Origin: an uncultured Desulfobacteraceae bacterium
Lineage (GTDB): Bacteria; Desulfobacterota; Desulfobacteria; Desulfobacterales; Desulfatirhabdiaceae
Length of the DNA: 47,397 bases
Reading direction: 5' to 3'
Assembly (NCBI GenBank): GCA_903953895.1
Contig: CAJBLH010000090.1
Location: 1-47,397 of the forward strand
The notes under the pieces were generated by a model. It was not told the DNA's origin and did not search any database. It worked only from the letters and a program-made list of their open reading frames with translations. Made by a program: the position numbers and the translations under genes. Positions 20,596 to 46,885 of this stretch are shown here, in pieces; positions within the stretch are counted from its first letter, which is position 1, and the number at the start of each line of letters is the position of its first letter.

Positions 20596-21962
20596 AAAGA
20601 TTGCTTAAGTATACTGGCCTTATATTGATGGTGCTGATGGCAAGCGGATCAGTTTGGGCGTACGATTACAACGATCATGTTACAGTTGCTCCGAATAACA
20701 AGGGTGATGTATTGATATTCCCCTATTACTTGGCTGTAGATGGTGGATGGCAAACCAAATTGACTGTTATTAATACCGATGAAGTAAATTCACTTGTTGC
20801 AAAAATTGTTATCAGAAGTTTTAAAAACAGCGAAGAATTGCTTGACTTTTTCTTGTACCTTTCGCCTGCAGACGTCTGGACAGGAACAATGTTGTATGAT
20901 GCAGCTATAAACAGAGTTGTGATAGACAGCACGGATGATAGCTGCCTAGCATCAAGCTCAGGTACAACATTAGCAACACTTGTATGGGCAAGTACGATCA
21001 CACCCACAGTACAAAAGCTGCATCAGGGGCTTTTCCCTGTTAGTTGTGGAGATGATGGTGACTTTTTAGGGTATATTGAGGTGTTTACGGCAGCATCTGG
21101 TAATGCAGGCGCAAGACCTCTAAAAAAAGATACGATATGGTCTGAATACGATAAATTAGTGAATGGCGCTGCCGCTTCCAGTTTGCTGAGATATGCTAGC
21201 GCCGCGTGGACAAGACCAAATGTTCTTGCTGGGTTTATGCAGTTGCAGAATCCTATGGCTGGCCTTGATGCTTCTCTTCGGGCGACCACATTGAAAGACA
21301 ATCTCAACACTGGACGAATGACCACAAGTGCTGAAACACGTCTTGGAGAGAATTCGCGAAATACTCTGGGAGAAGTTGAGGCTGCTTTGACCAAAGACGA
21401 TATTGCTATGCCGTATGTCAACGGTAGTGATGTTGCAATTCATATTTTCACTTTCCCAACCAAACTGACAAATGTAGAAAATGGTTGTGAAAACAGTGAT
21501 ACTGAGGATATTGCAGTTTTTGGACCTTATTTTAATGTACCCCCGCATGTAACGGCTCAGTATTGTGTAGATTACCAGACGGCTGTATACGACCTCAGAG
21601 AAAATACACCAGGTACCGGTCCTTTTTCAGGTGGTTCTCTCGAAACACGTGAATTTTGTGCTGAAGTCAATATTGTAGCAGCCGACGTATTCCCATCTGG
21701 ATATGTCGAAGGCTGGGCACATTACTTTTTCCCACACAACGTCCAGTACCCGACTACTACCCAGATTTTGGCGCCTTTTAGTAGGTGGATAACCTACTTT
21801 GGTGCACCGGTACTGCCAACTTATCTCTCAATTGGAGCAACCGGGCTATCTGCTAATTATGGGGCATGGGATGATGAATTGGTATTTTGTGGAACAACTG
21901 CTGTAACTACCCTGATGGATTATCAATATTCAGATTCTGCACCGGCAACTGGTTGCAACTAA
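20592..21962 (+). CDS. Cassette A gene 3: large exported protein, family unrecognised
   Basis: The 456-residue protein has a clear signal peptide (LMVLMASGSVWA, cleavage before YDYND) and a beta-rich mature part. Landmarks shared with the copy at 41265-42614 are HVTVAPNNKGDVLIFPYY, LTVINTDEVNSLVAKIVIRS, LYLSPADVWTG, STDDS, LGYIEVFTA, YDLRENTP, EGWAHY and ITYFGAPVLP, in the same order over the full length. The early NxKGDxLxFPYY and TVINT/SxVAKV segments look like a repeated immunoglobulin-like beta-sandwich. An excellent GGAGG precedes ATG 20592. No enzyme motif is visible; a surface or matrix role is likely. The likely export route is Sec, then possibly the neighbouring T2SS. Confidence 0.75.
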   Translation: MKRLLKYTGLILMVLMASGSVWAYDYNDHVTVAPNNKGDVLIFPYYLAVDGGWQTKLTVINTDEVNSLVAKIVIRSFKNSEELLDFFLYLSPADVWTGTMLYDAAINRVVIDSTDDSCLASSSGTTLATLVWASTITPTVQKLHQGLFPVSCGDDGDFLGYIEVFTAASGNAGARPLKKDTIWSEYDKLVNGAAASSLLRYASAAWTRPNVLAGFMQLQNPMAGLDASLRATTLKDNLNTGRMTTSAETRLGENSRNTLGEVEAALTKDDIAMPYVNGSDVAIHIFTFPTKLTNVENGCENSDTEDIAVFGPYFNVPPHVTAQYCVDYQTAVYDLRENTPGTGPFSGGSLETREFCAEVNIVAADVFPSGYVEGWAHYFFPHNVQYPTTTQILAPFSRWITYFGAPVLPTYLSIGATGLSANYGAWDDELVFCGTTAVTTLMDYQYSDSAPATGCN

Positions 21963-24470: not shown

Positions 24471-24496
24471 GATAGAAAATTAATTAACAGGTGGCC

Positions 24497-25291
24497 ATGT
24501 TTACAAAGTGGATCAAAGCTCCTTTTCTGCATAAAAATTTATTTTGGGGATTTGTCAATCAGGAGATTCGAGGAAAATACGTTGGATCGTTCGGCGGCCT
24601 CTTGTGGAGTATCATTACCCCGATAGCGAACATGCTGATATTTATTTTTGTTTTTTCGGCTGTTTTTCAGATTCGCATGAAGCAGATCGAAACCGGTACC
24701 GACAGTTTTGTGGTGTATTTGCTGGCAGGACTGTTGCCGTGGATCGCATTCAACGACGTGGTCTCCGCCAGCACTGGCATGTTTTTGGGAAAGGCCAATC
24801 TGATTACAAAGGTTGCATTTCCACTAGAACTGGTTCCGGCAGCGGGAATTTTTGTTACCTTTATCTTAAACGGTATCGGTTTTACTCTTTTTCTGCTTTA
24901 CCTTACATTCGAAGGCTATTGCCATGTGGCCTGGTTGATGTTGCCGATTGTAACAGCCTTGTTTATGGTATTTACCCTTGGCATCGTCGTATTTATTGCA
25001 AGCCTCAGCGTTTTTGTCAGGGATATTCAACAAATAATCGGCAGTATACTTTCATTGATGATGTATCTGACACCGATACTTTATCCAATCCACATGGTAC
25101 CGGAGTCTCTCAGGTTTCTGCTGCTGGTCAATCCGGTTCTTCCCTTTATCGAGCTGTATCACCAGGTCTTGCTTCAACATGTCATTTCATTCGAGTTGAT
25201 CGGGCAAGCCATTGGATATGCGGCGATTTCTTTTGTATTTGGCGTATGGTTCTACAATAGATCCAGAAATGCATTTGCAGATGTTCTGTAG
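24497..25291 (+). CDS. wzm: ABC-2 polysaccharide export permease (Wzm type)
   Basis: Wzm forms the membrane channel that exports a lipid-linked polysaccharide such as O-antigen or teichoic-type glycans, powered by the Wzt ATPase. The 264-residue protein has the N-terminal amphipathic segment with FVNQEIRGKYVGSFGGLLWSI typical of this family and six membrane segments, ending in YNRSRNAFADVL. ATG 24497 is preceded by AGGTGG; GTG 24491 is in frame. The matching ATPase lies 3.2 kb downstream after two membrane glycosyltransferase genes rather than next to it. Confidence 0.88.
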   Translation: MFTKWIKAPFLHKNLFWGFVNQEIRGKYVGSFGGLLWSIITPIANMLIFIFVFSAVFQIRMKQIETGTDSFVVYLLAGLLPWIAFNDVVSASTGMFLGKANLITKVAFPLELVPAAGIFVTFILNGIGFTLFLLYLTFEGYCHVAWLMLPIVTALFMVFTLGIVVFIASLSVFVRDIQQIIGSILSLMMYLTPILYPIHMVPESLRFLLLVNPVLPFIELYHQVLLQHVISFELIGQAIGYAAISFVFGVWFYNRSRNAFADVL

Positions 25292-28503: not shown

Positions 28504-29718
28504 ATGTTCAAAGTGATTGTCAATGACCTGCATAAACATTACAGAATTTATAGCCGCCCGATCGACCGATTGGCGGAAGCCATTACGCGCAAGCCCAGGC
28601 ATCAGGTTTATAACGTCTTGAACGGCATCTCTTTTTCACTGGCGCCCAGTCAATCACTGGCGATTATCGGCGATAATGGTGCTGGAAAATCCACGTTGAT
28701 GAAGCTTCTGGCGGGAACGCTTACGCCGAATGCCGGTACAATGGAAATCAAAGGGCGGCTTGCCGCATTGCTCGAGCTGGGGGCGGGATTTCATCCGGAG
28801 TTTACGGGGCGTCAGAACATATATTTAAATGCCGCGCTGCTGGGATTGACCAAAGAAGAAACACAGGAGCGGGAGAAATCGATTATCGCTTTCTCCGAGC
28901 TGGAAGAGTTCATCGATCGCCCGGTGAAAAACTATTCCTCGGGGATGTATGTCCGTCTGGCTTTTTCCATTGCAACCAGCATCGATCCGGACATTCTGAT
29001 CATCGATGAGGCGTTGTCCGTGGGAGATATTGCTTTTCAGCGAAAGTGCATCGATCGGATGAATGTTTTCAGAGCTCAGGGCAAAACCATGATATTTTGC
29101 AGCCATTCCATGTATCATGTACAGGAACTCTGCGAAAAGGCGATGTGGCTGGATCACGGCCAAATCCGCTATATGGGCGCCTGCACAGAGACGGTAGCCC
29201 GGTACGAAAATTTCTGCAAAGCTAAAAAAACACCGGACGACGCAACGAATGCACCGCCTGCTTTGTCTCATGCCAAAGATTGCCACGTTTCGCTGCTACG
29301 TGTCGAAGATATCGCAGGTAATCCGACGGATACGCTGATACCTTTCGGCGATGCGGTGCTTCGGATGGATGTGGATATTTTGAAAGACGGGCTGATGCCC
29401 AGGTTTGGTTTCGGATTTGTCATGCCCGATGAAACGCCTCTTTATGCAGGTTTGACCCACCACGATGACATTTCGTGCGGCCCATATTCTGCCGGAGAAA
29501 AGATTACGGTGCGCCTGCATCTCGATAAATTTCCTGTCAGAGAAGGAACATACCGTTTGGTTGGCGGTGTGGCCGAAAACAGCGGATTGCTGTGGTATGA
29601 ATATAAATATGTCGGACCTGTAAAAGTAGAGCCCAACAAAGGTGTTGGCCTTCTTTCCTGCGGACATGCATGGGAGATCAAAACGACAGCAGAAAGCGGA
29701 GTGGCAACAACAGCATGA
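28504..29718 (+). CDS. wzt: ABC polysaccharide export ATPase with C-terminal glycan-binding domain (Wzt type)
   Basis: This is the energising subunit for the Wzm permease. The 404-residue protein has Walker A GDNGAGKST (56-64), the GRLAALLELGAGFHPEFTGR segment characteristic of Wzt/TagH proteins, signature YSSGMYVRLAF, Walker B DILIIDEALSVGD and the switch histidine SHSMYHV. Residues from about 255 on form an extra beta-sandwich domain (ITVRLHLDKFPVREGTYRLV) like the C-terminal domain of Wzt that recognises the capped end of an O-polysaccharide. GGAG lies about 13 bases before ATG 28504. Its stop overlaps the next start by ATGA. Confidence 0.93.
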   Translation: MFKVIVNDLHKHYRIYSRPIDRLAEAITRKPRHQVYNVLNGISFSLAPSQSLAIIGDNGAGKSTLMKLLAGTLTPNAGTMEIKGRLAALLELGAGFHPEFTGRQNIYLNAALLGLTKEETQEREKSIIAFSELEEFIDRPVKNYSSGMYVRLAFSIATSIDPDILIIDEALSVGDIAFQRKCIDRMNVFRAQGKTMIFCSHSMYHVQELCEKAMWLDHGQIRYMGACTETVARYENFCKAKKTPDDATNAPPALSHAKDCHVSLLRVEDIAGNPTDTLIPFGDAVLRMDVDILKDGLMPRFGFGFVMPDETPLYAGLTHHDDISCGPYSAGEKITVRLHLDKFPVREGTYRLVGGVAENSGLLWYEYKYVGPVKVEPNKGVGLLSCGHAWEIKTTAESGVATTA

Positions 29719-31553
29719 CAGTATATTTTCCCTCTCAGGTGATTCTGGAAGTAACGAGCGCCTGTAATCTGAGATGCAAAGGCTGCGCAATTCACGGGCC
29801 AGACAGTTTTGTAACCCGGCCGGCCGGTCCCATGCCGGAAGAAATCTGGCGTACGGCCATTGCCGAAATCGGATCATGGGACCGGCAACTCAATCTGACC
29901 ACCCACGGCGGCGGAGAGCCGCTGCTTCATCCCCGGTTGAAAGAGATACTACAGTTTGCCAAGTCTTTTCCCGAACTTCAGGCAGGGTTTCTGACCAATG
30001 GAATGCTCTTTGATACGAACTGGTCCGAGTTCGCCTTGTCTGTGGGGCTGGACTGGATCGCTTTCAGCATTGATGGCGTCTCTGCTGAAACACATCGGAT
30101 CGTTAGAAAAAACTCCGATCTGGATATGATTGAAAAAAATCTCCAGGCTCTGCTTTCGCTCAGAAAACGGGAAAAATCGCAGAAGCCTTATACGTCGCTG
30201 AATATGGTGGCTTACGAAGAAGTGGCGGATCAGAAAGAACTTTTTGTAAAACGCTGGCTTAACCAGGTAGACAATATCACGATTTCACATTACAGAAATC
30301 CGCCGAACAGCAAGCGCTGGCCTCTGGTTCCTTCTGAAAGAACCCCCTGCTTTCTGCTCTGGTCTCAGATGGTGATTGCCAGTGATGGCAGGGTCGGGTT
30401 GTGCTGCGAGGATTTCAACATTGATTTTCCCTTCGGAAGAATCGGAGAAAAGCCGTTGATCGAGATATGGAACGGCCCCGAGATTTCCGAATTAAGAAAA
30501 ATGCACGAGAAGGGGGATTTCGCCAGTCATCCGATGTGCCGCGACTGCGATACCTGGGCAGACAATATCATTCAGAAAACCGAAGACAATGACCATATCG
30601 GGTGCCAAATGTTTTATAAAGCATCGCAGATTGAATACAAGCCTCTTCTTCGGAAGTCGGAAAATATTACGCTGCCGTATCCAACGGAGGATCACCCGGC
30701 GATGGTTGCGGCACTCGGTATTTTGCCGCATGAAAAAGTTCTGGATGTCGGGGGCGGCCATTTTCCGTTTTCGCGTGCGGATGTTGTGGTGGATATCGAT
30801 TTTGCTTCGGGCCAGCACCGGGATGGAAGCAAAATGATGATTGATTTTTCAAAACATGGTTACGTTCAGGCCGATATGACCGAGCTGCCGTTCAAAGACA
30901 AGTGCTTTGATGTGGTGGTTTGCATTCAGGCGTTGGAGCATACGGCAAGACCGGAAAAAGCCTGTGAGGAACTGATGCGGGTTGCGCATCGGGGATTTAT
31001 CGAAACTCCCAGGAAATGGACGGAATATTATGCCGGACATCCGACGCATCGCTGGCTGATAGATGATGTAAACAATGTATTAACGTTTGAACCCATTGTC
31101 TTTGATCGTTCCCCCTTTCATAATTTTGCACTGCCGCCGTTGTGGAACTCTCCTGAAATGCTGGGTAAATCCTTGACGGAACATCGTCATATCGCCTGCG
31201 TTCAGTGGGTGTGGCAAGACAGATTTGCGTATCGGGTCATGGCAGGCAGCCCGGTCTCCGAAGTTTCTTTGGCGGCAAGGCATTACCATTTTGCCGGCAA
31301 TCTTCTCTACTGGATGGCGCCTGTGGAACAAGGGCTTTTTCATGCGGCGCTTGCGGCAGAAAAATGTCCGGATAATCCCGAATACTCTAAACGATATGCC
31401 GTTTATCTGGCGCTATGCGGAAAATGGCGCCTGGCTTTCCGGCATGGCTTAAGTTTAAAATTATCGGTAGATGTGATAGAATCCTATCTGATGCTGAAGT
31501 TTTTTCGCCGGCTGGTTGCCTGGTACAGATACAGATTCGAGAAAATTAGATGA
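29715..31553 (+). CDS. Radical SAM/SPASM - class I methyltransferase fusion
   Basis: The 612-residue protein has two modules. Residues 1-300 form a radical SAM domain with CNLRCKGC (Cys17, 21, 24) for the 4Fe-4S cluster, THGGGEPLLHP, and a SPASM-type C-terminal cysteine set (PCFLLW, GLCCEDF, CRDC). From about residue 330 there is a SAM-dependent methyltransferase-like domain with LDVGGGHFPFSRADVVVDID, MTELPFKDKCFDVVVCIQAL and EHTARPEKACEELMRVA. Both modules use SAM but by different chemistry. ATG 29715 overlaps the wzt stop, tying it to glycan export. Substrate is unknown; a sugar, lipid or peptide end-group would fit. I know of no characterised enzyme with exactly this order. Confidence 0.82.
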   Translation: MTVYFPSQVILEVTSACNLRCKGCAIHGPDSFVTRPAGPMPEEIWRTAIAEIGSWDRQLNLTTHGGGEPLLHPRLKEILQFAKSFPELQAGFLTNGMLFDTNWSEFALSVGLDWIAFSIDGVSAETHRIVRKNSDLDMIEKNLQALLSLRKREKSQKPYTSLNMVAYEEVADQKELFVKRWLNQVDNITISHYRNPPNSKRWPLVPSERTPCFLLWSQMVIASDGRVGLCCEDFNIDFPFGRIGEKPLIEIWNGPEISELRKMHEKGDFASHPMCRDCDTWADNIIQKTEDNDHIGCQMFYKASQIEYKPLLRKSENITLPYPTEDHPAMVAALGILPHEKVLDVGGGHFPFSRADVVVDIDFASGQHRDGSKMMIDFSKHGYVQADMTELPFKDKCFDVVVCIQALEHTARPEKACEELMRVAHRGFIETPRKWTEYYAGHPTHRWLIDDVNNVLTFEPIVFDRSPFHNFALPPLWNSPEMLGKSLTEHRHIACVQWVWQDRFAYRVMAGSPVSEVSLAARHYHFAGNLLYWMAPVEQGLFHAALAAEKCPDNPEYSKRYAVYLALCGKWRLAFRHGLSLKLSVDVIESYLMLKFFRRLVAWYRYRFEKIR

Positions 31554-32503
31554 TGCAGCCGTATATTTATGAAATAGAGCCTACCAATCACTGCCCTTAC
31601 ACATGTATCATGTGCCCGCGCGGATTGGGCCGCATGCGCCGTGCCGTCGGGTTTATGGAAGTTGATGCCTTTGGCGATGTGATCAAGCAATTCCCGGCCA
31701 ATCAAAAATTGGTGCGGTTGCATCATTTTGGCGAGGCTGTGCTGCACCCCGAAATTGATACGATGATCGAAATGGTTGCAGATGTCGGGCTTATCTCAGT
31801 GCTTTCCGTCAATCCGGCAACATTGTCTCCGGCCTTGATTCGGAAACTGATACAAAGCGGCATACACATCATCTGTTTTTCACTCGATGCGTTATCCGAC
31901 GAGGGCTTGCAAGATATCAGAGGTATCAGGCGCGCATTTGACGCATGCTGGTCAATGATCGAAGAATTTATCGATGTCAGCCGGGACAGCGGGAGGTTTG
32001 TCTTAAAAATAATCCAGATGGTTCGCTTAAAACAAAATGAAATGCATCGCAAAGCGTTTGCGGAAATTAAAAATAAATACGCTGAATCCGATGTTTATTT
32101 GTATTTAACGGAAAATTACGGATTTGGAGATATCAATCTGGTAGAAAAAACGACACCCGGAGGAAGTGCTTACATTTCTTCAGGGCTTCGGCCCTGCAAT
32201 TCGCCGTTTACGGAGGTATCCATTTTATGGAACGGTGATGTCGTGTTATGCTGCTATGATTATGATGGATTTAATATCATAGGAAATATTCATGATAAGC
32301 CCTTATCTGAAATATGGGGGGATAGTAAAATAAAAGAAATCCGGGGTCTGTTTGAAACCGGACAGACGCGAAAGCTGCCCCTTTGCGCCAATTGTTTTCT
32401 ATCGCCGCATCATTTTTCGGAGAAAGGTGCAACCATCGGAAAAGGATGGCAGGAAGAGTCTGAAATAATAGACATATTCGAAAAAGCAATGGTGAAATCA
32501 TGA
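31550..32503 (+). CDS. Radical SAM/SPASM enzyme
   Basis: The 317-residue cytoplasmic iron-sulphur enzyme has CPYTCIMC (Cys15, 19, 22) near the N terminus, the TIM-barrel landmark LHHFGEAVLHPEID, and a C-terminal SPASM-like set (PCNSPF, WNGDVVLCCYDY, IGNIHDKPLSEIW, PLCANC). Such proteins modify peptides or small molecules using a 5'-deoxyadenosyl radical. Its ATG overlaps the stop of the radical SAM-methyltransferase fusion, so the pair is made together and may act in sequence. Nothing in the sequence identifies the substrate. Confidence 0.85.
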   Translation: MMQPYIYEIEPTNHCPYTCIMCPRGLGRMRRAVGFMEVDAFGDVIKQFPANQKLVRLHHFGEAVLHPEIDTMIEMVADVGLISVLSVNPATLSPALIRKLIQSGIHIICFSLDALSDEGLQDIRGIRRAFDACWSMIEEFIDVSRDSGRFVLKIIQMVRLKQNEMHRKAFAEIKNKYAESDVYLYLTENYGFGDINLVEKTTPGGSAYISSGLRPCNSPFTEVSILWNGDVVLCCYDYDGFNIIGNIHDKPLSEIWGDSKIKEIRGLFETGQTRKLPLCANCFLSPHHFSEKGATIGKGWQEESEIIDIFEKAMVKS

Positions 32504-34411: not shown

Positions 34412-35170
34412 ATGACAGAAGATCAATTCATCCCTTTTCATACAACAGATCTTACGGGCAAGCGCGTGCTGGTTCTGGCGCCACATCCGGATGATGAAAC
34501 CTTCGGCTGCGGCGGAACGCTTGCGCTTCATGCAGAGGCCGTCGACCCGGTCCGGGTGGTGATTTTAACCAACGGGGCCAAAGGAGATATGTCCGGCAGA
34601 TACGACAGGAACGATTACATAGCGATTCGCCAGCAGGAAACTCTGGCGGCATGTGCCTGCCTGGGGATATCCGATGTTATTTTCTGGCCTTATGAAGATC
34701 GGGAGCTGGCAGACTCGGCAACCGTGGATTCGGAACTGGCGGCGCTGATTGATGAATATGCGCCGGAGCTGATTTATGCGCCGTCGCCCCTGGAATTTCA
34801 TCCGGATCATCGCGCAGCAGCATATTTTACCCAGGCTGCGATCAAGTTATGCCAAATGGATGCAGCACTTATTTTTTATGAGGTCGGTCAGCCCCTGCAG
34901 GTGGATATTCTTGTGGACATTACGGGTGTGTTAGACAAGAAAAAACAGGCGATTCAGCAATACAAAAGTCAGTTGGAAGAGCGACCTTATGATGATTTTT
35001 CATTGGCGTTGAATCGCTTCAGAAGCCTGACTCTGTCAAGAGATGTGACGCATGCAGAGGGGTTTATCCGATCCATGGACTGGCATCCGTTACTGGAACC
35101 GGCTGTAAATGGCTATCGATCCTGGGGTAAGAAACTTGGCGCAGCCGTAAAACGCTGCTTGAAATTCTGA
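34412..35170 (+). CDS. PIG-L/LmbE-family deacetylase
   Basis: This zinc hydrolase type removes N-acetyl groups from GlcNAc-containing molecules. The 252-residue protein has the metal motif APHPDDETFGCGG (His25, Asp28) and the second metal ligand site FHPDHRAAAYF (His130-His133), with the interposed RQQETLAACACLGISDV. Both are intact, so it should be catalytic. It begins two bases after the GNAT stop. In this setting it may expose an amine on a sugar of the exported glycan or on a lipid carrier intermediate. Confidence 0.88.
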   Translation: MTEDQFIPFHTTDLTGKRVLVLAPHPDDETFGCGGTLALHAEAVDPVRVVILTNGAKGDMSGRYDRNDYIAIRQQETLAACACLGISDVIFWPYEDRELADSATVDSELAALIDEYAPELIYAPSPLEFHPDHRAAAYFTQAAIKLCQMDAALIFYEVGQPLQVDILVDITGVLDKKKQAIQQYKSQLEERPYDDFSLALNRFRSLTLSRDVTHAEGFIRSMDWHPLLEPAVNGYRSWGKKLGAAVKRCLKF

Positions 35171-35225: not shown

Positions 35226-38200
35226 ATGGCGTCACCTGCAATCAGCATCATCATTCCGGCGTATAACCATGAGGCATTCGTTGCCGATGCGATCAAAAGC
35301 GTTCTGAATCAGTCTTTTACGGATTTTGAAATCATCGTCATCGATGATGGATCAACAGACAGTACTTTTGATGAGATCAAAAAAATCGATGATCCCAGGA
35401 TACGTTCCTTTCGTCAATCCAATATCGGGGCCGCGGAAACCATCAACCGCGGCGTCGATCTCTCCCAGGGGCAATATATCACCATTCTCAACTCTGATGA
35501 TATGTATCATCCCGAGCGATTGGCCCATTGTAAACGGTATATGGATGAGAGACCCGAGACGATGGTATTGTCAAGCCTCGTTCAGGCGGTTGATGTTTTG
35601 GGCAATCCTCTGAAACCCGGAGCCGGCAATGCATTCCATGATTACTGGCTGGGCTGGTATGCGGGTGCTATTCAGAAGCTTCAGCAGGATGGCGATTTTT
35701 TTTATTCGCTGCTGCAATCCAATTTCGTAGTTTCCACTTCCAATATATTTTTGAATTCTCGGATATTTCAGGAAGAAAACAAATTTGAGGATAAATTCTC
35801 CTATTGTCACGATTATGCCTTTTTGCTTCGGGTGCTGCAATCGCATCCATTCGGGTTCATCCATAGAAACCTGTTGCAGTATCGCCTGCACGAAACCAAT
35901 ACGATTCGTCACAATCATTTTTTAAAGCGCCTTGAGATCCAGTATGCCGTATTCCATTCACTGAATTTTGATGAGATACTGACAGGCTCCCTCAGTTTTC
36001 AGCACAAAATATCCGGCGTTGTGTTCCGGGGCCTTGAAAACAATCCGGATATCAATTTTGGCATTCGGCTGGCGGAAAAAGACAGGATGCTTGAAAAATC
36101 CGATGGATGGCTAAAAGAACTGCAATCTCAAATTACCCATGCCGAAGAGCGACTGATGCATACCGAAGGGATTGTTGAATGTTTCGAGTCTCTTGCGGCT
36201 GAAAAGGATATGCGGATTCAGGAAAGGGATAATCAACTCCAGCGTCTTGCCAAAGAAGTTGAACAAAAAGATGCTGATCTCCAGGGACTTACCAGAGAAA
36301 TCCAGCAAAAAGATGATAATCTTCAGCGTCTTGCCAAGGAAGTCGAACAAAAAGATGCTGATCTCCAGGGACTTACCAGAGAAATCCAGCAAAAAGATGA
36401 TAGTTTTCAGCGTCTTGCCAAAGGAATCGAACAAAAAGATGCTGATCTCCAGGGACTTACCAGAGAAATCCAGCAAAAAGATGATAATCTTCAGCGTCTT
36501 GCCAAAGAAGTTGAACAAAAAGATGCTGATCTTCAGCGTCTTGCCAAAGAAGTTGAACAAAAAGATGCTGATTTTCAGCGTCTTGCCAAAGAAGTTGAGC
36601 AAAAAGATGTTGATTTTCAGCGTTTTGCTAAAGAGGTTGAGCAAAAAGATGTTGATTTTCAGCGTTTTGCCAAAGAGGTTGAGCAAAAAGATGTTGATTT
36701 TCAGAGACTTGCCAAAGAGGTTGAACAAAAAGATGATAATCTCCGACACCTTATCAAAGAAATTGAACAAAAAGATAATAGCCTCCGGCGCCTATCCGAT
36801 GAGAACAGACAGAAAGACGAACATCTGCATGATCATGCTGAAGAAATCAACCGGAAAAATATCCTGCTTTCCGATATCGGACACCAGATTCAAGCATTAA
36901 AAAAAGAATTTCTGGAACGTCAGCGTCAGTGTGAAGAACAGGAAAAAGAGCTGGCGATGAAGTCAGATTATGAAACTGCTTTAAAAACGCAAGTTCACCT
37001 GGGGGATATACAACTTCAGGAAGCCGACCGAAAAATTGTTTTCCTCGAACATATGATTGCGCAGAAGGACCAGATTGTCAGTGAAAAAGAACGCTTCATG
37101 CAGGAGCTTTTTGCTTCTAAAGGGTGGCGATGGCTTACCCGGTATCGGGATATAAAGTTAAGTCTGGTCGCCAGACCGAAATCACATGCCGATCAACAAG
37201 AACATCAACCGCAAGTCGATGAAAAAACGTATCATGCCAAGGTGTTATCTTCAAATAATCACGTAAGGCCCAAAGTTGTTCATGCCATTGCCAATTTCCT
37301 GACCGGGGGCTCCAGCCGTCTGGTTGTCGATCTGGTTGAACATCTGGGGCACAAATACGATCAGGAGGTCATCTCCTTTTGTATTCCAACACCGCTGGCT
37401 TATGCCGGTGTGGTGTTGCACGATTTTTCGGGGAATGTCGCCAAAGAGCGGATTGAATCCTTCATCCGGCAAAAGAATGCACAGATTCTTCATGTCCATT
37501 ACTGGGGCGAAGGCGATGCGCCGTGGTATCGAAAGGTTTTTGATGCTGCGGAAAACTGGCAGGGTGTTTTGATTGAAAACGTCAATACGCCCGTGGTGCC
37601 CTATGTCAGCGACCGGGTGGATCATTTTGTTTATGTCAGCGAATATGCTAAAAATTTTGCAGCGTGTCGGGAAGAAAAATCCTCCGTGATTTATCCGGGC
37701 AGCAATTTCGCTCTGTTCGATCGAAAAGAAGCACCGGTTCCGGATAATGTTATCGGCATGGTGTATCGCCTGGATCCAGACAAGCTGAAAGCGGATGCCA
37801 TTCGTGTATTTATCCAGGTTGTCAAGAAAAGACCGCAAACTCAGGTGCTGATTGTCGGCGGCGGAGAATTTTTCGATGCCTATCGCACACAGGTGTCCGA
37901 AGAAGGCGCATCCGCCAATTTCGAGTTTACCGGATATGTTCCCTATGAAAAACTGCCGGAATATTATCAGAAAATGTCGATATTCGTTGCGCCGGTATGG
38001 AAAGAAAGCTTTGGGCAGGTATCGCCGTTTGCCATGAGTATGAAAATTCCGGTGGCGGGATATCGGATCGGCGCTCTGTCTGAAATTCTCGGCAGCGAAG
38101 ATCTTCTGGCAACCGACCCTGATGAACTGTCGGACATTATCGTGAATTTGCTGGAAGACAGAGACCGAAGAATCGAAATCGGCCGGAACAATCATCAGCG

Positions 38201-38285
38201 GGCCCACGAACGTTTTTCGGTCGAGGCTATGGTTGCCGCCTACGACCGGCTGTATGACCGGCTGATTCAAGAGCGTAGCCTTTAA
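35226..38285 (+). CDS. Giant glycosyltransferase: GT2 - long coiled coil - GT4 fusion
   Basis: In this 1019-residue protein, residues about 5-270 are a GT-A family 2 enzyme (ISIIIPAYNHEAFVADAI, IIVIDDGSTDST, ILNSDDMYHP). From about 290 to 640 is an extended coiled coil with fifteen 14-residue units of the LQRLAKEVEQKDAD type. From about 680 on is a GT-B family 4-like domain (IANFLTGGSSRLVVDLVEHL, ILHVHYWGEGD, WKESFGQVSPFAMSMKIPVA). In the GT4 E-x7-E motif the second Glu is Phe, so donor binding may be altered. ATG 35226 is preceded by GGGAAG; GTG 35202 is in frame. Two transferases held apart by a rigid rod resemble the molecular-ruler layout known for some O-antigen chain-length enzymes. Confidence 0.85.
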   Translation: MASPAISIIIPAYNHEAFVADAIKSVLNQSFTDFEIIVIDDGSTDSTFDEIKKIDDPRIRSFRQSNIGAAETINRGVDLSQGQYITILNSDDMYHPERLAHCKRYMDERPETMVLSSLVQAVDVLGNPLKPGAGNAFHDYWLGWYAGAIQKLQQDGDFFYSLLQSNFVVSTSNIFLNSRIFQEENKFEDKFSYCHDYAFLLRVLQSHPFGFIHRNLLQYRLHETNTIRHNHFLKRLEIQYAVFHSLNFDEILTGSLSFQHKISGVVFRGLENNPDINFGIRLAEKDRMLEKSDGWLKELQSQITHAEERLMHTEGIVECFESLAAEKDMRIQERDNQLQRLAKEVEQKDADLQGLTREIQQKDDNLQRLAKEVEQKDADLQGLTREIQQKDDSFQRLAKGIEQKDADLQGLTREIQQKDDNLQRLAKEVEQKDADLQRLAKEVEQKDADFQRLAKEVEQKDVDFQRFAKEVEQKDVDFQRFAKEVEQKDVDFQRLAKEVEQKDDNLRHLIKEIEQKDNSLRRLSDENRQKDEHLHDHAEEINRKNILLSDIGHQIQALKKEFLERQRQCEEQEKELAMKSDYETALKTQVHLGDIQLQEADRKIVFLEHMIAQKDQIVSEKERFMQELFASKGWRWLTRYRDIKLSLVARPKSHADQQEHQPQVDEKTYHAKVLSSNNHVRPKVVHAIANFLTGGSSRLVVDLVEHLGHKYDQEVISFCIPTPLAYAGVVLHDFSGNVAKERIESFIRQKNAQILHVHYWGEGDAPWYRKVFDAAENWQGVLIENVNTPVVPYVSDRVDHFVYVSEYAKNFAACREEKSSVIYPGSNFALFDRKEAPVPDNVIGMVYRLDPDKLKADAIRVFIQVVKKRPQTQVLIVGGGEFFDAYRTQVSEEGASANFEFTGYVPYEKLPEYYQKMSIFVAPVWKESFGQVSPFAMSMKIPVAGYRIGALSEILGSEDLLATDPDELSDIIVNLLEDRDRRIEIGRNNHQRAHERFSVEAMVAAYDRLYDRLIQERSL
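36237..36866 (+). repeat. 42-bp tandem repeats encoding coiled-coil units
   Basis: Fifteen consecutive 42-bp units start at 36237 and recur every 42 bases. The first twelve are highly similar at the DNA level, with an alternating GLTREIQQKDD/RLAKEVEQKDA pattern at first and then a homogeneous stretch; the last three are degenerate. Each encodes two heptads. Homogeneity suggests recent expansion by recombination. Confidence 0.92.
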
Positions 38286-38372
38286 CACCCCCGCTTCCTC
38301 CGGCAGATGGCCGGGGCGAGGGCCCGAACTGTTCAGATCAAGATCACGCAAAGTAAAAAAACATGGAGTACC

Positions 38373-39749
38373 ATGAAACCCTTGAATATCCTGCTGCCCG
38401 TTCATGTCTTTTTCCCGGATCATTTTTATGGCACGGAAACCTACACCCTGGAACTGGCCCAGTGCTTGAAACGCATGGGGCACAACCCCACAATATTAAC
38501 GTCGATTCTTTACGGAGAGAAAAGCCCCGGCGGAGATCGGTTTACCTATGAATACGGCGGGCTGACCGTTGACTGCACCGATTTGAATACACAGCCGCTG
38601 AAAAAGTTCAAACAATTATATTCCCGCCCGGATTTATATCCCGTGATAGCGGACATTATTCAGCAGCGGCAGCCGGACATCATTCACGTCACCCACCTGA
38701 TGGGGCATACCCCCGTACTCCTCGAGGTCATTCGGGATATGAAAATCCCTGTGGTGGCCACGCTGACAGACTTTTACGGCATCTGCCCCAACAGCAAACT
38801 CATCGCATTTGACGGCAGCCCTTGTACCGGGCCGAACCGGCGCTCCACCAACTGCCTTTCCTGCTACATCAGAGAACATGACTATGAGTTTTCATCGTCG
38901 AAAACCCTGGCGCCGCTTATCCGGAAAGACAATAAGCTGCCATGGGTGTCTTTCCTGCTGCCCTATGCGGCGGAGCTGGCCCGATTTTCGCACTTGCGCG
39001 AAAGTATTTGGGATGCGATCGATCGGACAGAGCATGTCAGGAAGCTGTACGACATTTACGCCTGCATGATTACGCCGACGGATCTGCTTCATGATGCATA
39101 TGTCCGGAATCGGTTTTATCCGAAAAAATTACATAAAATCAATTTCGGCATCAATCTCGATATGGTAAAAGCCTATCGTCACACCATGACGGAAGCCCCG
39201 GTGTCCATCAGATTCGGTTATATCGGGCAGATCACTTCCCACAAGGGAGTTGATCTGTTAATGAAGGCGTTTGCCGATCTTACCGGGCCACCGGCGACTC
39301 TTTCCATTTATGGACCCAGAGATCAGGATGCGGCATACATGGCGGAGCTGGACCGGCTATCCGATGGTCGGGGGGCTGTCGTATTCAAGGACACCTTCCC
39401 CAAAGATCAACTGGGGCAGGTGCTTTCGGAAATCGATGTGCTGGTAATTCCCTCGCGCTGGTACGAAAACAGCCCCCTGGTGCTGTTGTATGCGCTGGCG
39501 ACGAAAACTCCGGTCATTGTAACTGACATGAAGGGCATGAGCGAATTTGTAAAGAACGGTTATAATGGGTTTACCTTCAAGAAGGACGATGCATCGCAGC
39601 TTGGTTTAATCATGCAGCAGATTGTCGATAATCCTGCAACACTTCTCCAGTTGTCAAAAAATGCCGATTACAATAAGGGTATTATGGATCATGCTGAAAA
39701 TGTTCTTGATATTTATCTGGCTGTTTTGAGGAACACAGAGAACGGTTAG
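38373..39749 (+). CDS. Glycosyltransferase family 4
   Basis: The 458-residue GT-B enzyme has the N-terminal motif HVFFPDHFYGTETYTLELAQ, a Cys-rich insert (GICPNSK, CTGPNRRSTNCLSC), and the C-terminal lobe FGYIGQITSHKGVDLLMKAF and RWYENSPLVLLYALATKTPV. In the E-x7-E position the second Glu is Tyr, a variation seen in some GT4 enzymes. ATG 38373 has GGAG six bases upstream. It follows the giant fusion by 87 bases and is the last gene of the glycan cluster before cassette B. The Cys-rich insert is unusual for GT4 and might bind metal. Confidence 0.83.
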   Translation: MKPLNILLPVHVFFPDHFYGTETYTLELAQCLKRMGHNPTILTSILYGEKSPGGDRFTYEYGGLTVDCTDLNTQPLKKFKQLYSRPDLYPVIADIIQQRQPDIIHVTHLMGHTPVLLEVIRDMKIPVVATLTDFYGICPNSKLIAFDGSPCTGPNRRSTNCLSCYIREHDYEFSSSKTLAPLIRKDNKLPWVSFLLPYAAELARFSHLRESIWDAIDRTEHVRKLYDIYACMITPTDLLHDAYVRNRFYPKKLHKINFGINLDMVKAYRHTMTEAPVSIRFGYIGQITSHKGVDLLMKAFADLTGPPATLSIYGPRDQDAAYMAELDRLSDGRGAVVFKDTFPKDQLGQVLSEIDVLVIPSRWYENSPLVLLYALATKTPVIVTDMKGMSEFVKNGYNGFTFKKDDASQLGLIMQQIVDNPATLLQLSKNADYNKGIMDHAENVLDIYLAVLRNTENG

Positions 39750-41169: not shown

Positions 41170-41235
41170 TTGAAAGGGGGTGACAGTTTAAGCATATCAC
41201 GACATCACACGGTTAAAATACCAAGGGTAAATTGA
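41170..41235 (+). CDS. Possible 21-residue frame at the site of the cassette A peptide
   Basis: TTG 41170 opens MKGGDS...TVKIPRVN and stops at TGA 41235, overlapping an in-frame TTG of the next gene. Position and ends (K-GGD near the start, VKI near the end) match the 33-residue frame at 20494, but no ribosome site is visible, so it may be eroded or chance. The shared DNA blocks GAAAGGGGGYGA and GGTTAAAATA could instead be a leader RNA feature. Confidence 0.25.
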   Translation: MKGGDSLSISRHHTVKIPRVN

Positions 41236-41264
41236 TAACTAAAGATGAGGAGGAGAAAGAAAAG

Positions 41265-42614
41265 ATGAAAAAGTATAAAATTTTTATAGTTGTTCTCATG
41301 ATAGCAACGATGATGAGTGGTTCAGCATGGGCCTGGAATGCCTCCGAGCATGTCAAGGCAGCGCCGAATGGCAAAGGTGATTTGTTGTTTTTCCCGTACT
41401 TTTTTGCTTATCCCGGAGGATATTCAACACACATTACCGTCATCAACACCAGTTCTACTCAAAGCGTGGTAGCGAAGGTTATATATCGCTCGTGGAATTA
41501 TAGCTCTGAATTGCGGGATCATTTGATTTATTTGTCTCCAAACGATGTTTGGACTGCGGATCTGGTGAATGTTGATGGTGTTGCGAGGCTGAGGAGTACG
41601 GATGACAGTATATTGGGCAAGCCAGTTCCCGCAGGCGCCGTAGCAGCCGATGATAACTTCGCTAATATAAGCCCTGTTGACATCGAATTAGTTCCAGCAG
41701 AATGTGCTGGTGACGACAATACTGAGGGGTACATTGAGGTAATCGAGGCAGCGGCAAGAACAGAAAGCGTCACTATGACAGGGTACGCACCTGGATCTAG
41801 AGTTGCAAAGAAACACATTTATGATTGGTATGAGTCATTAAATGTTGATCAGCCAGGGAGCTATTATTACTTATTGAATTATCCACCGGTCAACGTGCTA
41901 ACTGGTTATCAGCAAAATACTTTTGGTGTTGGTTCAACACTGAGCCGAGCGAATGTGTTTGCAGATTATGAAAATCAAGATAAACTTGAGATATCAGCCC
42001 CGACTACCCTTGGGCTTGCCGCCAGAAATAATGTGCCTGAGATAGAAGCAGCAATGGTAAAACTAAATGTTGGACTGCCATATGTCGCAAAAGCAAACGG
42101 CGATTCCGCACTTCATGTTTTCAATTTTCCGACTAAACAGTCATCTGAAAGTCCTGCTGCCCCATGTGCAAACTATAGTGATAGAAGCCCGTATTGGTCT
42201 GCTGTGGGCAGTAAGTACGAAAGATATTCTCGTAATATTTATGATTTATCAGAAAATACGCCTAGCGTATCTTCGCCAATCTTCTCACCAGTAACAACAA
42301 ATCCAACTTACATGGGTGCCGAAGTTCAATTTAACTTTGTTGAATATTCGACTGCCAACCCATCTTACACTGAAGGTTGGATTAGATATAACTGGGAACA
42401 ATCGTCAACAAGGAAAGTAAGTAGAACGCCAAGTGGATCAGAGATATCCTATTATGGAACTCCTGTTCTGGCTAGTGGATTGTATTGGACTGCCACAAGA
42501 TCTAACCCGGCAGAAGCTCTTGCTGCTTACGATGATGGTAACGTTTCAATAGGATCGAGGTTATTACCCTATTACCAATATACTGAGGATCAGGAGGCGA
42601 TGCCTAGCCTGTAG
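41265..42614 (+). CDS. Cassette B gene 3: large exported protein, family unrecognised
   Basis: The 449-residue copy of cassette A gene 3 has a signal peptide (VVLMIATMMSGSAWA, cleavage before WNASEH), then HVKAAPNGKGDLLFFPYF, ITVINTSSTQSVVAKVIYRS, LIYLSPNDVWTADL, STDDS, GYIEVIEAAA, LGLAARNNVPEIEAAM, YDLSENTPSV, EGWIRYNW and SYYGTPVL, all colinear with the other copy. ATG 41265 has GAGGAGG upstream; the frame extends back to TTG 41232 but that lead is highly charged and would spoil the signal. A terminator follows 140 bases after the stop. Function unknown; the strong conservation of NGKGDxLxFPYF suggests a structural core. Confidence 0.75.
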   Translation: MKKYKIFIVVLMIATMMSGSAWAWNASEHVKAAPNGKGDLLFFPYFFAYPGGYSTHITVINTSSTQSVVAKVIYRSWNYSSELRDHLIYLSPNDVWTADLVNVDGVARLRSTDDSILGKPVPAGAVAADDNFANISPVDIELVPAECAGDDNTEGYIEVIEAAARTESVTMTGYAPGSRVAKKHIYDWYESLNVDQPGSYYYLLNYPPVNVLTGYQQNTFGVGSTLSRANVFADYENQDKLEISAPTTLGLAARNNVPEIEAAMVKLNVGLPYVAKANGDSALHVFNFPTKQSSESPAAPCANYSDRSPYWSAVGSKYERYSRNIYDLSENTPSVSSPIFSPVTTNPTYMGAEVQFNFVEYSTANPSYTEGWIRYNWEQSSTRKVSRTPSGSEISYYGTPVLASGLYWTATRSNPAEALAAYDDGNVSIGSRLLPYYQYTEDQEAMPSL

Positions 42615-43933: not shown

Positions 43934-46885
43934 ATGAAGACACGCTTGCCTATTCTGCTATTATCGTCTGCCTTGATTTTTGTCTTTTGCACAGGAGGAG
44001 TGCTTTTTGCTGATAATACAATTCCTGACGGATGTGTGACACTTCATTATCCGTACGCTCTTGCGCAGTGCGGAGGCTCAGACTGTACTTTTTTAGATAA
44101 AACTTCCGGATATATACCCTACTTCCGAGTTTTCATACCACCGGGAACAATTGTATTCCAAATGTATATTCTGGAATATGGAGGGCAATCGGTTATTGCC
44201 CGGCATGAAATCCCGCCTGAAGGAGAGCCTACCTCTCGACCTGCCGGCACACCTCACAACCCATATACGTTAAGTGATTTTGAGCAAGAAGACCAATGGG
44301 CAGCGCAAAGCTATGATGGCGTTTTAAATATTGCATATGATTCATTTCCGGATCCTTACCTTTCTTTTAATAGGGGCGGGTGGTTGTATGTGAAGGTAGG
44401 CGGTGGAAGCTATTCGCAGTATTACAGCACTACTTTTACCGTTACGGTTGACACAGCTACTTACAATAAATGGTGGGTTGACAATATCGTAGATGCTGAT
44501 GGGTGGAATCAAAAAGTTGAAGCCGTTCAAACGTATTGTCCAACAGCGGTTCCAGCAGAAATTTGTACGCAGGATTTGCCTGTTCTGAAGGTAACGCCGA
44601 CCGACCAACTGGTTTTATACGAAGCAGATAAGACCACTTTCACTGTTTCCAACAGCGGAACCGGAACAATGCCTTGGACTGCGGCCGTGCTATCTGGAAG
44701 CGAGTGGCTTACGATCATATCAGAAAGCAGCGGAACCAATGATGGATACATCACTTGCGGCTACAGCGACAATGGCGGCACAACAGCTCGCGTGGGTACA
44801 ATCCGGGTGACAGCAGCCGGGGCGACAAATAGCCCGGTGGATGTGACGGTTACACAGGAACCAACTCCGCAAGCACCGGTTCTATATGTTACGCCGAACA
44901 TTCAAAAGGTTTCCGAGCAAGCTAATACGACCGAATTCATTGTTAAAAACACAGGAACCGGAACAATGCCTTGGACTGCGGCCGTGCTATCTGGAAGCGA
45001 GTGGCTTACGATCATATCAGAAAGCAGCGGAACCAATGATGGAAACATCACTTGCGGCTACAGCGACAATGGCGGCACAACAGCTCGCGTGGGTACAATC
45101 CGGGTGACAGCAGCCGGCGGGGCGACAAACAGCCCGGTGGATGTGACGGTTACACAGGAACCAACTCCGCAAGCACCGGTTCTGGATGTTATGCCGAACA
45201 TTCAAAATGTTTCCAAGGAAGCTGGTACGACCGAATTCATTGTTAAAAACACAGGAACCGGAACAATGCGTTGGACTGCGGCCGTGCTATCCGGAGGCGA
45301 TTGGCTTACGATCACATCTGGAGACAGCGAGAGCAATGCGGGAACCATCATTTGCAGTTTCAGCACCAATTTCACCGCATCGAAGCGCGAGGGTACAATC
45401 CTGGTAAAAGCAGACGTAGATGTGAAATCTGTGTCTGTGCAGGTGATTCAAGAAACAGTCAGCATCGTATTGTCATCACTGGTTCCGGATACCGGGCTGG
45501 CGGCATGCTACGACAACGCTAATGTTATCGCATGTCCTACGTCTGGTCAGCCATTTTACGGCCAGGACGCAAACTTCCCACTCCATCCGATGTCTTACAC
45601 CAAGCTGGATGCCATCGGCAAGCCACTGTCGGATGCGAAAGTACCGTGGGTAATGTTAGCGGATGATGTTACCGGCCTGATCTGGGAGATGAAAACCAAC
45701 AAGGATAATAAACCGGATTACACTAATCCCCACGATGCGGACAACATCTATATCTGGGGCAACGGAAGCAACGCCGGAGCGCTGATCAGCGATGTTCATT
45801 ATGCCGACGACTTTATTAAAGCCTTGAATGTTGCAACTTTTGGCGGATACAGCGACTGGCGACTACCTACCATCAAGGAGCTTGCCTATATTGTTAGTTA
45901 CACTATTTCCTCTCCAGGGCCAAGGATAGATGCTCTTTTTTCTGACACGGCTTCATCTTTTTATTGGTCCGCCGATGCATATGCTGCTATGTTTTCGCAC
46001 GACGCGTGGTGCATGGATTTCAGTAGTGGCAAAAGTTATGTCCGCGATAAGTCTGATAATAGCTATTCTGCCCGCGCTGTTCGGGGGGGGGAGTCTGGGT
46101 CACAGCTTAATTTGGCAAATAAGCTTATTTTAGGCAGCGGTTCGTTGCATTCTGCTTCGACTACAGCCGGAATTTATACGGATAACGGCGATGGCACAGT
46201 AACAGACATATCTACTGGTCTGATGTGGGGGCCAAATACGAGTCTGTTTACCACCTGGCAGGATGCTTTAAGCTATTGTGAAACGGAAAATTATTCTGGC
46301 TACCCTGGCTGGCGACTGCCTACTATCAAAGAATTACAAAGTTTAGTGGATTTCAGTCAACACAACCCAAGCGTAAATCCCGTTTACTTTTCGAACATGG
46401 ACAGTTCCTTCTATTGGTCCTCTACTACCGAAACAAGTGATATGAGCAGGGCATGGGGTGTAGACTTCAGCAATGGCAGCACCGGCCACAAAGATAAAAA
46501 TGACTTCGGTTCTGCTGCTGTTCGAGCTGTTCGAAGCGTATTATTGCAAACAGCATGTACGGCAATTTTAGACGATAAATTATCACTTCATGTACCAATT
46601 ATTGAATCTGACGATCAAACATCTGAGATCAAACCGTATTTTTGGGCGGATTTTCTTTATGATCCCGATTATGCGCCTGATTTTTATTTTCAATTAACTA
46701 ATTTTGATAGGTTAGAAAATCCATCTGTCTCTTGTGAAACATCAACATTATCCGGCGATTTAAAATTACATATTCCTGATGTTTTGTTTTCAGACGGAAG
46801 CCATTATTGGGTAGATTTAGAGTACGTTAGCATCGATGCAAAAAACTACTTTATCGTTACAGGCTCTGATATGCTCAACAGATAA
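43934..46885 (+). CDS. Cassette B gene 4: exported protein with three BACON-like and two DUF1566 domains
   Basis: The 983-residue protein has a signal peptide (LIFVFCTGGVLFA) and an N-terminal domain (27-210) related to that of the 22315 protein (YFRVFIPPGTI, GVLNIAYD, GGWLYVKV, TYNKWWVD). Three BACON-like Ig repeats (about 215-312, 314-412, 414-512) with FTVSNSGTGTMPW, SEWLTI and GTIRVTA follow. Two DUF1566 domains (about 578-720 and 761-870) each carry the hallmarks TGLIW/TGLMW, DWRLPTIKEL/GWRLPTIKEL and a SSFYWS...AVR ending. A C-terminal beta domain (870-983) completes it. BACON domains often bind glycans or mucin; DUF1566 has a lectin-like fold in some proteins. GAGG precedes ATG 43934. 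It is likely a large cell-surface or secreted adhesin-like protein. Confidence 0.82.
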   Translation: MKTRLPILLLSSALIFVFCTGGVLFADNTIPDGCVTLHYPYALAQCGGSDCTFLDKTSGYIPYFRVFIPPGTIVFQMYILEYGGQSVIARHEIPPEGEPTSRPAGTPHNPYTLSDFEQEDQWAAQSYDGVLNIAYDSFPDPYLSFNRGGWLYVKVGGGSYSQYYSTTFTVTVDTATYNKWWVDNIVDADGWNQKVEAVQTYCPTAVPAEICTQDLPVLKVTPTDQLVLYEADKTTFTVSNSGTGTMPWTAAVLSGSEWLTIISESSGTNDGYITCGYSDNGGTTARVGTIRVTAAGATNSPVDVTVTQEPTPQAPVLYVTPNIQKVSEQANTTEFIVKNTGTGTMPWTAAVLSGSEWLTIISESSGTNDGNITCGYSDNGGTTARVGTIRVTAAGGATNSPVDVTVTQEPTPQAPVLDVMPNIQNVSKEAGTTEFIVKNTGTGTMRWTAAVLSGGDWLTITSGDSESNAGTIICSFSTNFTASKREGTILVKADVDVKSVSVQVIQETVSIVLSSLVPDTGLAACYDNANVIACPTSGQPFYGQDANFPLHPMSYTKLDAIGKPLSDAKVPWVMLADDVTGLIWEMKTNKDNKPDYTNPHDADNIYIWGNGSNAGALISDVHYADDFIKALNVATFGGYSDWRLPTIKELAYIVSYTISSPGPRIDALFSDTASSFYWSADAYAAMFSHDAWCMDFSSGKSYVRDKSDNSYSARAVRGGESGSQLNLANKLILGSGSLHSASTTAGIYTDNGDGTVTDISTGLMWGPNTSLFTTWQDALSYCETENYSGYPGWRLPTIKELQSLVDFSQHNPSVNPVYFSNMDSSFYWSSTTETSDMSRAWGVDFSNGSTGHKDKNDFGSAAVRAVRSVLLQTACTAILDDKLSLHVPIIESDDQTSEIKPYFWADFLYDPDYAPDFYFQLTNFDRLENPSVSCETSTLSGDLKLHIPDVLFSDGSHYWVDLEYVSIDAKNYFIVTGSDMLNR
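44651..45470 (+). repeat. Approximately 300-bp tandem repeats encoding BACON-like domains
   Basis: The landmark CCGGAACAAT occurs at 44661, 44958 and 45258, giving periods of 297 and 300 bases. Units one and two are almost identical over about 200 bases, differing by an added Gly codon in the second; unit three shares its first half closely and then diverges. This points to a recent in-frame duplication. Confidence 0.9.

Follow-up and report, generated by a model that had tools for sequence, protein, structure and literature searches.

The window (the whole 47,397-nucleotide stretch of DNA analysed here) carries on its forward strand a single open frame at 35226-38285, with an ATG start at 35226 and an in-frame GTG at 35202. 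The encoded protein is laid out as a GT2 module, a coil of ~352 residues, a short cap and a GT4 module. The N-terminal GT2 (GT-A) module (35226-36053, aa 1-276) matches PF00535 at aa 7-121 (5.4e-29, 101.7 bits against a cut-off of 23.3), and the C-terminal GT4 (GT-B) module (37278-38282, aa 685-1019) matches PF00534 at aa 833-991 (4.2e-22, 78.9 bits against a cut-off of 26.4) in Pfam profile searches. Both lie well above the cut-offs and in one frame, which bears out the initial annotation of two glycosyltransferase domains flanking a coil of about 350 residues. Between the modules are the coiled-coil rod (36054-37109, aa 277-628, 352 residues), a cap motif FASKGWRWLTRYRDIK 3' of the coil (37110-37157, aa 629-644), and a weakly conserved linker (37158-37277, aa 645-684, 15-54% identity in six comparisons). 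The best-scoring solved relatives, among 36 PDB sequences matched by the protein, are chondroitin synthase and SpsA. Single-chain fold prediction, run on a two-row alignment, gave a poor model (mean pLDDT 41.6). In a plasmid search 267 records matched, none covering at least 80% of the query, and the 25 records listed covered 21-34%.

The ortholog set comprises seven fused proteins, the source included, and one unfused GT4 (in genome G404). The GT2 motifs LNSDD and CHD, which have a catalytic role, are retained in all seven fused orthologs. The Wzm/Wzt context described earlier for the gene is also found: the same cluster encodes a Wzm-like ABC-2 permease (24491-25291, +; PF01061 at 52.7 bits, the NCBIfam Wzm and KpsM models being below cut-off) and a Wzt-like ATPase with a C-terminal carbohydrate-binding-like domain (28504-29718, +; PF00005 and PF14524), whose Wzt_C match (PF14524) is only about at the cut-off of 30.4 (30.4 bits, and 32.7 bits in a second search). 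The upstream neighbour is a PIG-L type deacetylase (34412-35170, +; PF02585); G002 and G007 also have one close to the gene, and the stretches at the other five loci lack it. Downstream lies a second GT4 glycosyltransferase, GT4b (38307-39749, +), which stands beside all eight loci (adjacent in seven, with one intervening gene in G338). The GT4 fused at the proximal end and this GT4b partner are candidate polymerase modules.

A Wzm/Wzt pair with Wzt_C is linked to the gene in three of the eight loci, the Wzt_C of G007 being below cut-off. It is absent from the same contig at the other five, and this absence weighs little, as four of the contigs are only 13-33 kb long; the G338 genome (91% complete) gave no Wzt_C match at E<=0.001. 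G007, which belongs to another genus, has a related cluster (Wzm 63%, Wzt 45%, PIG-L 56%, GNAT 25% and GT4b 59% identical) that also includes a Lip_A_acyltrans gene (Pfam). A Wzx-dependent pathway is not supported: PF01943 (Wzx) has matches in seven of the eight ortholog genomes and none in G338, and on the gene's own contig it is found in G007 alone, as a weak match ~50 kb distant, several of the contigs being short.

The coil and its 42-bp array

The 3.5-residue periodicity of the coil (power 38.2) was reached by none of 2000 shuffles. It is far above shuffles within the array and 3' of it and is weak in the stretch before the array, where 60 of 2000 shuffles reached it. The 354 residues preceding the cap are free of proline, and the rod would be ~52 nm long if it forms one continuous helix. 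Among window ORFs of at least 200 aa kept after overlapping frames had been dropped, ORF 35226-38285 alone passed our strict coil filter; a laxer version, applied only to glycosyltransferase-matching ORFs, also flagged 40 residues in ORF 2375-3082. This filter is home-made (hydrophobic a/d positions, polar residues elsewhere, no proline), serves for screening and misses imperfect coils such as a heptad stretch in G404.

Thirteen tandem units of 42 bp were listed at 36237-36782 (+); TRF places the array at 36240-36776, with 12.8 copies (score 591) and an 84-bp higher-order unit (score 668), so that the units are partly arranged as 84-bp doubles. Each unit equals 14 residues, or two heptads (commonest LQRLAKEVEQKDAD), and would add ~2.1 nm to a helix. 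In the best 500-base window the array matches itself at 0.852 at lag 84 and 0.816 at lag 42, compared with a maximum of 0.376 among 200 codon shuffles. Some units are identical in DNA (aa 422 with aa 436, aa 352 with aa 408), and of the 14 units of the source gene that were compared, 13 have their nearest neighbour within the same gene. These observations uphold the proposed recent expansion. The claim that the coil is built from such repeats stands in part: the array of ~13 units is real, but it makes up only about half of the coil (~182 of 352 residues), the remainder being heptad-periodic without visible repeats. The a/d positions of the array are hydrophobic apart from one core position that is an invariant Lys in every second heptad; this Lys weakens the core of the coil.

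Variation among orthologs

Five fused orthologs share an anchor, and their coils are 352, 233, 195, 163 and 107 residues long, a natural series of ~16 to 52 nm if each is one helix. Four of these five lengths are congruent modulo 7 (chance 0.013), a test that covers the five of seven fused orthologs sharing an NPDI anchor picked after the sequences had been inspected, with G230 and G383 left out; coil length thus changes mostly by steps that preserve the heptad register. The comparison is between species, with one genome per species. The source and G001 differ by 119 residues with the register kept, and the register is also kept between G007 and G338, in both of which the gene lacks a TRF array. 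The largest array occurs in the source genome alone. Coil length spans a more than threefold range, which could mean weak constraint; in two orthologs the helix preceding the cap is free of proline for just 77 residues, and a proline lies within the coil in G001 and G002.

The flanking GT4 module is 52-83% identical with 0-3 gaps in the five fused orthologs without an N run. The initial annotation stated that the GT4 half had lost one Glu of its E-x7-E motif. This motif is common in GT4, but not every active GT4 enzyme strictly needs it. The second Glu is indeed absent from the source protein (E927-x7-F935, 38004-38030, +), but Phe takes its place in all eight GT4 halves. Decay of the domain is rejected, as the Phe is shared by all eight members and the domain is nearly free of gaps in the five comparisons; the replacement is, judged from these sequences, an old subfamily trait.

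The cap is conserved, at 81-100% identity in three orthologs of its own family and 31-56% in three distant ones. A cap-like motif occurs 3' of GT2 in 17 of 29 related ORFs against 2.5 expected by shuffling, a count made with a pattern that was shaped on some of the counted proteins, misses the G383 cap and includes matches away from the coil end (for example in L080 and L084). The 29 ORFs come from 27 hand-chosen loci: the window, three f1 orthologs, five further loci and 18 regions, one each from 18 of 34 matched genomes with long open frames preferred. A peptide of this kind is probably widespread among enzymes of this type, and the count suggests a generic module border. A literature search for it gave papers on unrelated subjects among the matches listed. 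A membrane-binding amphipathic helix like that of WbdD is not supported by the hydrophobic moment of the cap, which is unremarkable (the best window ranks 284th of 1004). Related GT2 modules have other partners, namely a second GT2 or GT4 (by BLAST) or an NKWYS domain. By eye, we also saw a GT2 module joined to a HAD-like region (L035) and to a methyltransferase-like region (L036).

Likeness to chain-length rulers and alternative readings

Excerpts of several papers describe coiled coils in polysaccharide assembly. One describes a coiled-coil ruler as a hallmark of the enzymes that terminate chains in ABC-dependent pathways (PMC11127046), and in E. coli O101/O162 a protein combining a methyltransferase with a coil has been proposed as a ruler (PMC13168486). 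In E. coli O9a, the long coil of WbdD keeps a catalytic head away from the polymerase, and artificial insertions in this coil raise the modal chain length while truncations lower it (PMC5082667). The ruler analogy originally offered with WbdD is sound, and rod length does vary strongly between species here. WbdD differs in its parallel trimeric coil of ~20 nm, its methyltransferase-kinase head and its separate polymerase WbdA; the protein with the coil has no sugar transferase of its own. Closer precedents are WbbB of Klebsiella O12 and ORF6 of Klebsiella serotype O7, each a single polypeptide with a terminator, a coil and polymerase glycosyltransferases (PMC11231755). WbbB (GT99-GT102-GT103) resembles our protein in that its transferase modules share one chain with a coiled-coil ruler, in an ABC-dependent O-polysaccharide pathway (PMC11231755), but has an N-terminal beta-Kdo terminator and two C-terminal transferases of other families. 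Membership in the WbbB family is disfavoured by the PF00535 and PF00534 modules and by the chondroitin synthase and SpsA relatives, with GT99, GT102 and GT103 judged by description only; none of the 36 matched PDB sequences is named WbbB, several being named merely 'glycosyltransferase'. O7 ORF6, encoded in a wzm/wzt cluster, shares the order of catalytic module, central coil and polymerase transferase in one chain (PMC11231755); its distal module is a methyltransferase-kinase where ours is a GT2, and its proximal pair is GT2-GT2 where ours is a GT4. The excerpt of PMC12220298 makes no mention of this kind of ruler, and among the matches listed no paper deals with natural differences in repeat number within a coil of this type.

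An extended coil inside a glycan-assembly enzyme, one feature of the ruler class, is found at the sequence level, and at that level the architecture of the protein resembles that of WbdD, WbbB and O7 ORF6, the coiled-coil rulers that set chain length in ABC-exported O-polysaccharides. The analogy falls short at the distal end, where the known rulers have a terminator (a methyltransferase, methyltransferase-kinase or Kdo transferase) and the source protein has an ordinary GT2, with no match to a methyltransferase, a kinase or a known terminator transferase in Pfam or NCBIfam; the Wzm/Wzt linkage in only three of eight loci also counts against it. The G404 locus is similar in combining Wzm/Wzt_C, GT4 and GT4b, and encodes a protein (L084:5130-7172, minus strand) in which a GT2 is followed by a heptad-repeat stretch recognised by eye, QLAEKDRQLAEKE... 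That protein differs in that the stretch, unflagged by the coil filter, ends in an NKWYS domain (a putative capsular polysaccharide synthesis protein in Pfam), and the GT4 is a separate gene.

Ruler-like action is, tentatively, the single most likely function, just ahead of a plain scaffold. The coiled-coil spacer, probably an oligomeric rod with the cap proximal to the membrane, would fix the distance of the GT2 active site from the GT4 active site and GT4b. The GT4, with GT4b, may lengthen a lipid-linked chain close to the membrane, and the distal GT2 would then act on, and probably finish, chains long enough to reach it, which would set their length. In-frame gain or loss of 42-bp units would alter the spacer by 14 residues (~2.1 nm) with the register intact. 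This reading is favoured by the heptad periodicity, the length series with four of five members equal modulo 7, the near gap-free GT4, the cluster with Wzm/Wzt and Wzt_C and its relative in G007, and the reported hallmark (PMC11127046) and single-chain precedents (PMC11231755). It is weakened by the missing distal terminator, the more than threefold range of the coil, the Wzm/Wzt linkage in three of eight loci only, the prolines in G001 and G002, the core Lys, the weak periodicity before the array, the unremarkable cap moment, the poor fold prediction and the unfused GT4 of G404. The stronger proposal that the protein is a self-contained adjustable ruler, in which 42-bp copy number sets transferase spacing and species, perhaps also strains, thereby tune the length of their polysaccharide, is rather unlikely.

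A credible competitor is that the coil oligomerises the enzyme and tethers the two polymerising transferases and GT4b, its length being irrelevant to chain length. The ordinary kind of both modules, the varied further parts found with related GT2 modules, the generic module border suggested by the cap-like motif (17 of 29 against 2.5), the unconserved coil length and the name membrane-associated scaffold also given to the coil protein (PMC11231755) all fit such a tether, but it needs neither a ~350-residue coil nor a coil that differs from that of G001 by 119 residues with the register kept. Replication slippage may instead add and remove units neutrally in a permissive linker, the register being kept merely because a unit equals 14 residues. 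The privacy of the largest array to the source genome agrees with this, and since 42 = 3 x 14, whole-unit changes need no selection to preserve both frame and register; a within-array dN/dS of 0.32 (78 non-independent pairs), the a/d positions that remain hydrophobic except for the fixed Lys, and the register shared by G007 and G338 without a TRF array in either gene argue against it and make it improbable. That the unit number is wrong, through collapse or stretching of the repeat, is very improbable. The assembly is a draft of 315 contigs and this contig begins inside another repeat (54 bp), but exact repeats within the array reach at most 77 bp, less than the length of common short reads, many units have private differences, the frame is intact, and the orthologs have coils regardless.

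The ortholog group is a natural series of coil lengths beside a near gap-free GT4, in one genome reached via duplication of a two-heptad unit. Should chain length not follow coil length in this group, a long coil could be taken as the mark of a ruler only with some restriction; should it do so, a change in repeat number would be a route by which polysaccharide length evolves.

Organization of the gene and its relatives

The ORF at 35226-38285 (+) lies on a contig that is covered entirely by the window and belongs to a 5.47-Mb draft genome (G000). Its product of 1019 residues has an N-terminal GT2 module (PF00535, 101.7 bits), a heptad-periodic coil (aa 277-628, 352 residues), a short cap motif (FASKGWRWLTRYRDIK) followed by a variable linker, and a C-terminal GT4 module (PF00534, 78.9 bits). 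Matches to the GT4 half at E<=1e-50 were detected in 6 of 395 genomes across the phylum, 4 of 389 across the class and 2 of 16 from one further family, in samples that overlap; the large searches stop scoring after a few candidates in each genome. The gene is present in half of the genomes searched from its own family (4 of 8). These GT4-half searches gave at least eight loci in total, own included. The fused GT2-coil-cap-GT4 is found in seven of eight (G000, G001 from the same genus, G002, G007, G338, G230 and G383), and in G404 the GT4 is a separate, unfused gene. The G002 gene contains an N run and appears as two frames.

The initial annotation described the GT4 half as having lost one Glu of its E-x7-E motif. 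This is correct as a reading of the motif, but the replacement by E-x7-F (ESFGQVS[PT]F) is found in all eight loci compared, including the unfused G404 gene, so that Phe is fixed groupwide. A second GT4 gene, GT4b (38307-39749 in the window), adjoins the gene in all eight loci, with one gene between in G338; in the other seven loci its identity to the window copy is 76, 81, 59, 51, 45, 46 and 42%. The window copy of GT4b, read by eye, apparently also lacks the second Glu (ENSPLVLLY).

Both exporter components, Wzm and Wzt, are encoded on the gene's contig in G000, G007 and G404. The Wzt C-terminal domain (Wzt_C) is strong in G404 (79.3 bits), about at the cut-off in the window and below it in G007. 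The G007 counterparts of window genes are 63% (Wzm), 45% (Wzt), 56% (PIG-L, there fused to a GT2) and 25% (GNAT) identical; a Lip_A_acyltrans gene is common to both by Pfam only, the window copy having no tblastn match in the G007 stretch. An ABC-2 pair without Wzt_C lies ~3 kb upstream of the gene in G001. Neither PF01061 nor Wzt_C was matched on the contigs of G002 (26.5 kb), G338 (15.0 kb), G230 (13.3 kb) and G383 (33.0 kb), Wzt_C had no match at E<=0.001 anywhere in the G338 genome (91% complete), and Wzx (PF01943) had no match near the gene in any locus. Methyltransferase domains of these clusters are carried by other genes. The window's glycan cluster also contains two consecutive radical SAM genes, 29670-31553 (radical SAM/SPASM, with a methyltransferase domain) and 31550-32503. 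On either side, the cluster is flanked by apparent paralogues without a Pfam match (20592-21962 and 41232-42614), both matching one place in the comparison locus L033 (52% and 74% identity).

Repeat array and coil length

The coil had been described as built from recently expanded 42-bp repeats. The array is real (36240-36776, 12.8 copies of the unit, in part as 84-bp double units, TRF) and comprises 13 units of 14 residues in register (aa 338-519), which cover about half of the coil's 352 residues. Its self-match in the best-scoring 500-base window reaches 0.852 at lag 84 and 0.816 at lag 42, against a maximum of 0.376 in 200 codon-shuffled versions. Recent expansion is borne out: mean DNA identity among the 14 own units compared is 0.766 versus 0.598, 0.618 and 0.525 to units of G001, G002 and G007, and for 13 of the 14 the nearest neighbour is another own unit. 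Only three of seven G001 units are nearest to one of their own, so the window's genome alone shows clear single-species expansion. The array's units give a dN/dS of 0.32 (13 units, 78 non-independent pairs). Gross misassembly of the array is unlikely because its longest exact repeat is 77 bp.

The 3.5-residue hydrophobicity period is strongest in the array (power 30.8), followed by the coil after it (7.1) and before it (3.4); of 2000 shuffles, 0, 0 and 60 reach the observed power, respectively, making the stretch before the array the weakest. Core positions of the units are L/F, L/F, V/I and, in all 13 units, Lys. Such a residue is uncommon in a tight core and speaks somewhat against a very stable coil. 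Single-chain structure prediction from a two-sequence alignment gave an unusable model (mean pLDDT 41.6), whose predicted helices (278-401, 412-543, 552-629 and 634-648) give weak support to a helical rod. Among the other window ORFs of at least 200 aa (overlapping frames dropped), none passed a stricter home-made coil filter.

The GT4 modules of G001, G007, G338, G230 and G383 are 83, 73, 60, 52 and 53% identical to that of the window with 0, 0, 3, 2 and 1 gaps, versus 119, 196, 252, 218 and 225 gaps in the coil (G002, disturbed by the N run: 63% and 54 gaps in GT4, 157 in the coil). Between an NPDI anchor, which closes the GT2 region, and the cap, coils are 352 (G000), 233 (G001), 195 (G002), 163 (G007) and 107 (G338) residues long, or 2, 2, 6, 2 and 2 modulo 7 (chance probability of at least four of five in one class, 0.013). 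G230 and G383, which lack the anchor and were left out of this count, have 77 proline-free residues ahead of the cap; proline occurs within the coil in G001 and G002. The shared class, as read from these sequences, supports a continuous coil and is no proof of selection, because the anchor was picked after the sequences had been seen and unit duplication alone preserves register.

Other repeats on the contig

The contig starts inside near-perfect 54-bp repeats (1-712), where the assembly probably broke. The repeats, 18 residues long (LQQDREEQKQKWNDLQVT), belong to another protein that looks rich in helix; its 236-residue piece had no NCBIfam match. In ORF 10116-10868, which lies close to genes for type II secretion, 5.6 perfect copies of the heptanucleotide CAGGGGG (10139-10177) occur near the beginning. 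Gain or loss of copies of this 7-bp unit would change the reading frame, since 7 cannot be divided by 3, and phase variation is possible. A 300-bp direct repeat (44657-45318, 2.2 copies, 95% matching) lies within ORF 43934-46885, and low-complexity Pro-Thr repeats (23096-23618) within ORF 22315-24078.

Possible glycan ruler or scaffold

The proposal that the rod between two transferases may be a glycan ruler, with 42-bp copy number tuning chain length between strains, is a reasonable, if unproven, interpretation. It was likened to WbdD, and there are nearer precedents: WbbB (Klebsiella O12) and ORF6 (Klebsiella O7) carry terminator, coil and polymerase on one chain (PMC11231755). Judging from position, GT2 would be the distal, finishing transferase, and GT4 and GT4b the proximal, extending ones. 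Unlike the distal module of known rulers, this GT2 is not among recognised terminators. A single continuous helix would give ~52 nm for the window's coil and ~16 nm for the shortest anchored one; WbdD heads are kept ~20 nm from the membrane (PMC5082667).

The same loci are also accounted for if the coil is a scaffold. Related GT2 modules are found in ORFs with differing further parts. In 17 of 29 such ORFs, versus 2.5 expected from shuffling, GT2 is followed by a motif resembling the cap (S-[RKQ]-x-[YWF]-[RKQI]); the ORFs were hand-chosen, and some of them served to shape the motif. G404 (locus L084, 5130-7172, minus strand) has a heptad-repeat stretch that links a GT2 with an NKWYS domain, and the Wzm/Wzt_C cluster around it also holds the solitary GT4; this suggests that heptad-repeat stretches may be swapped between transferases as connectors.

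Among the literature matches listed, from a search with most subscription journals outside it, none describes natural variation of such a coil. The addition to the known picture is a GT2-coil-GT4 protein whose coil forms a length series, mostly in steps that preserve register; in one genome, 42-bp units drive this change.
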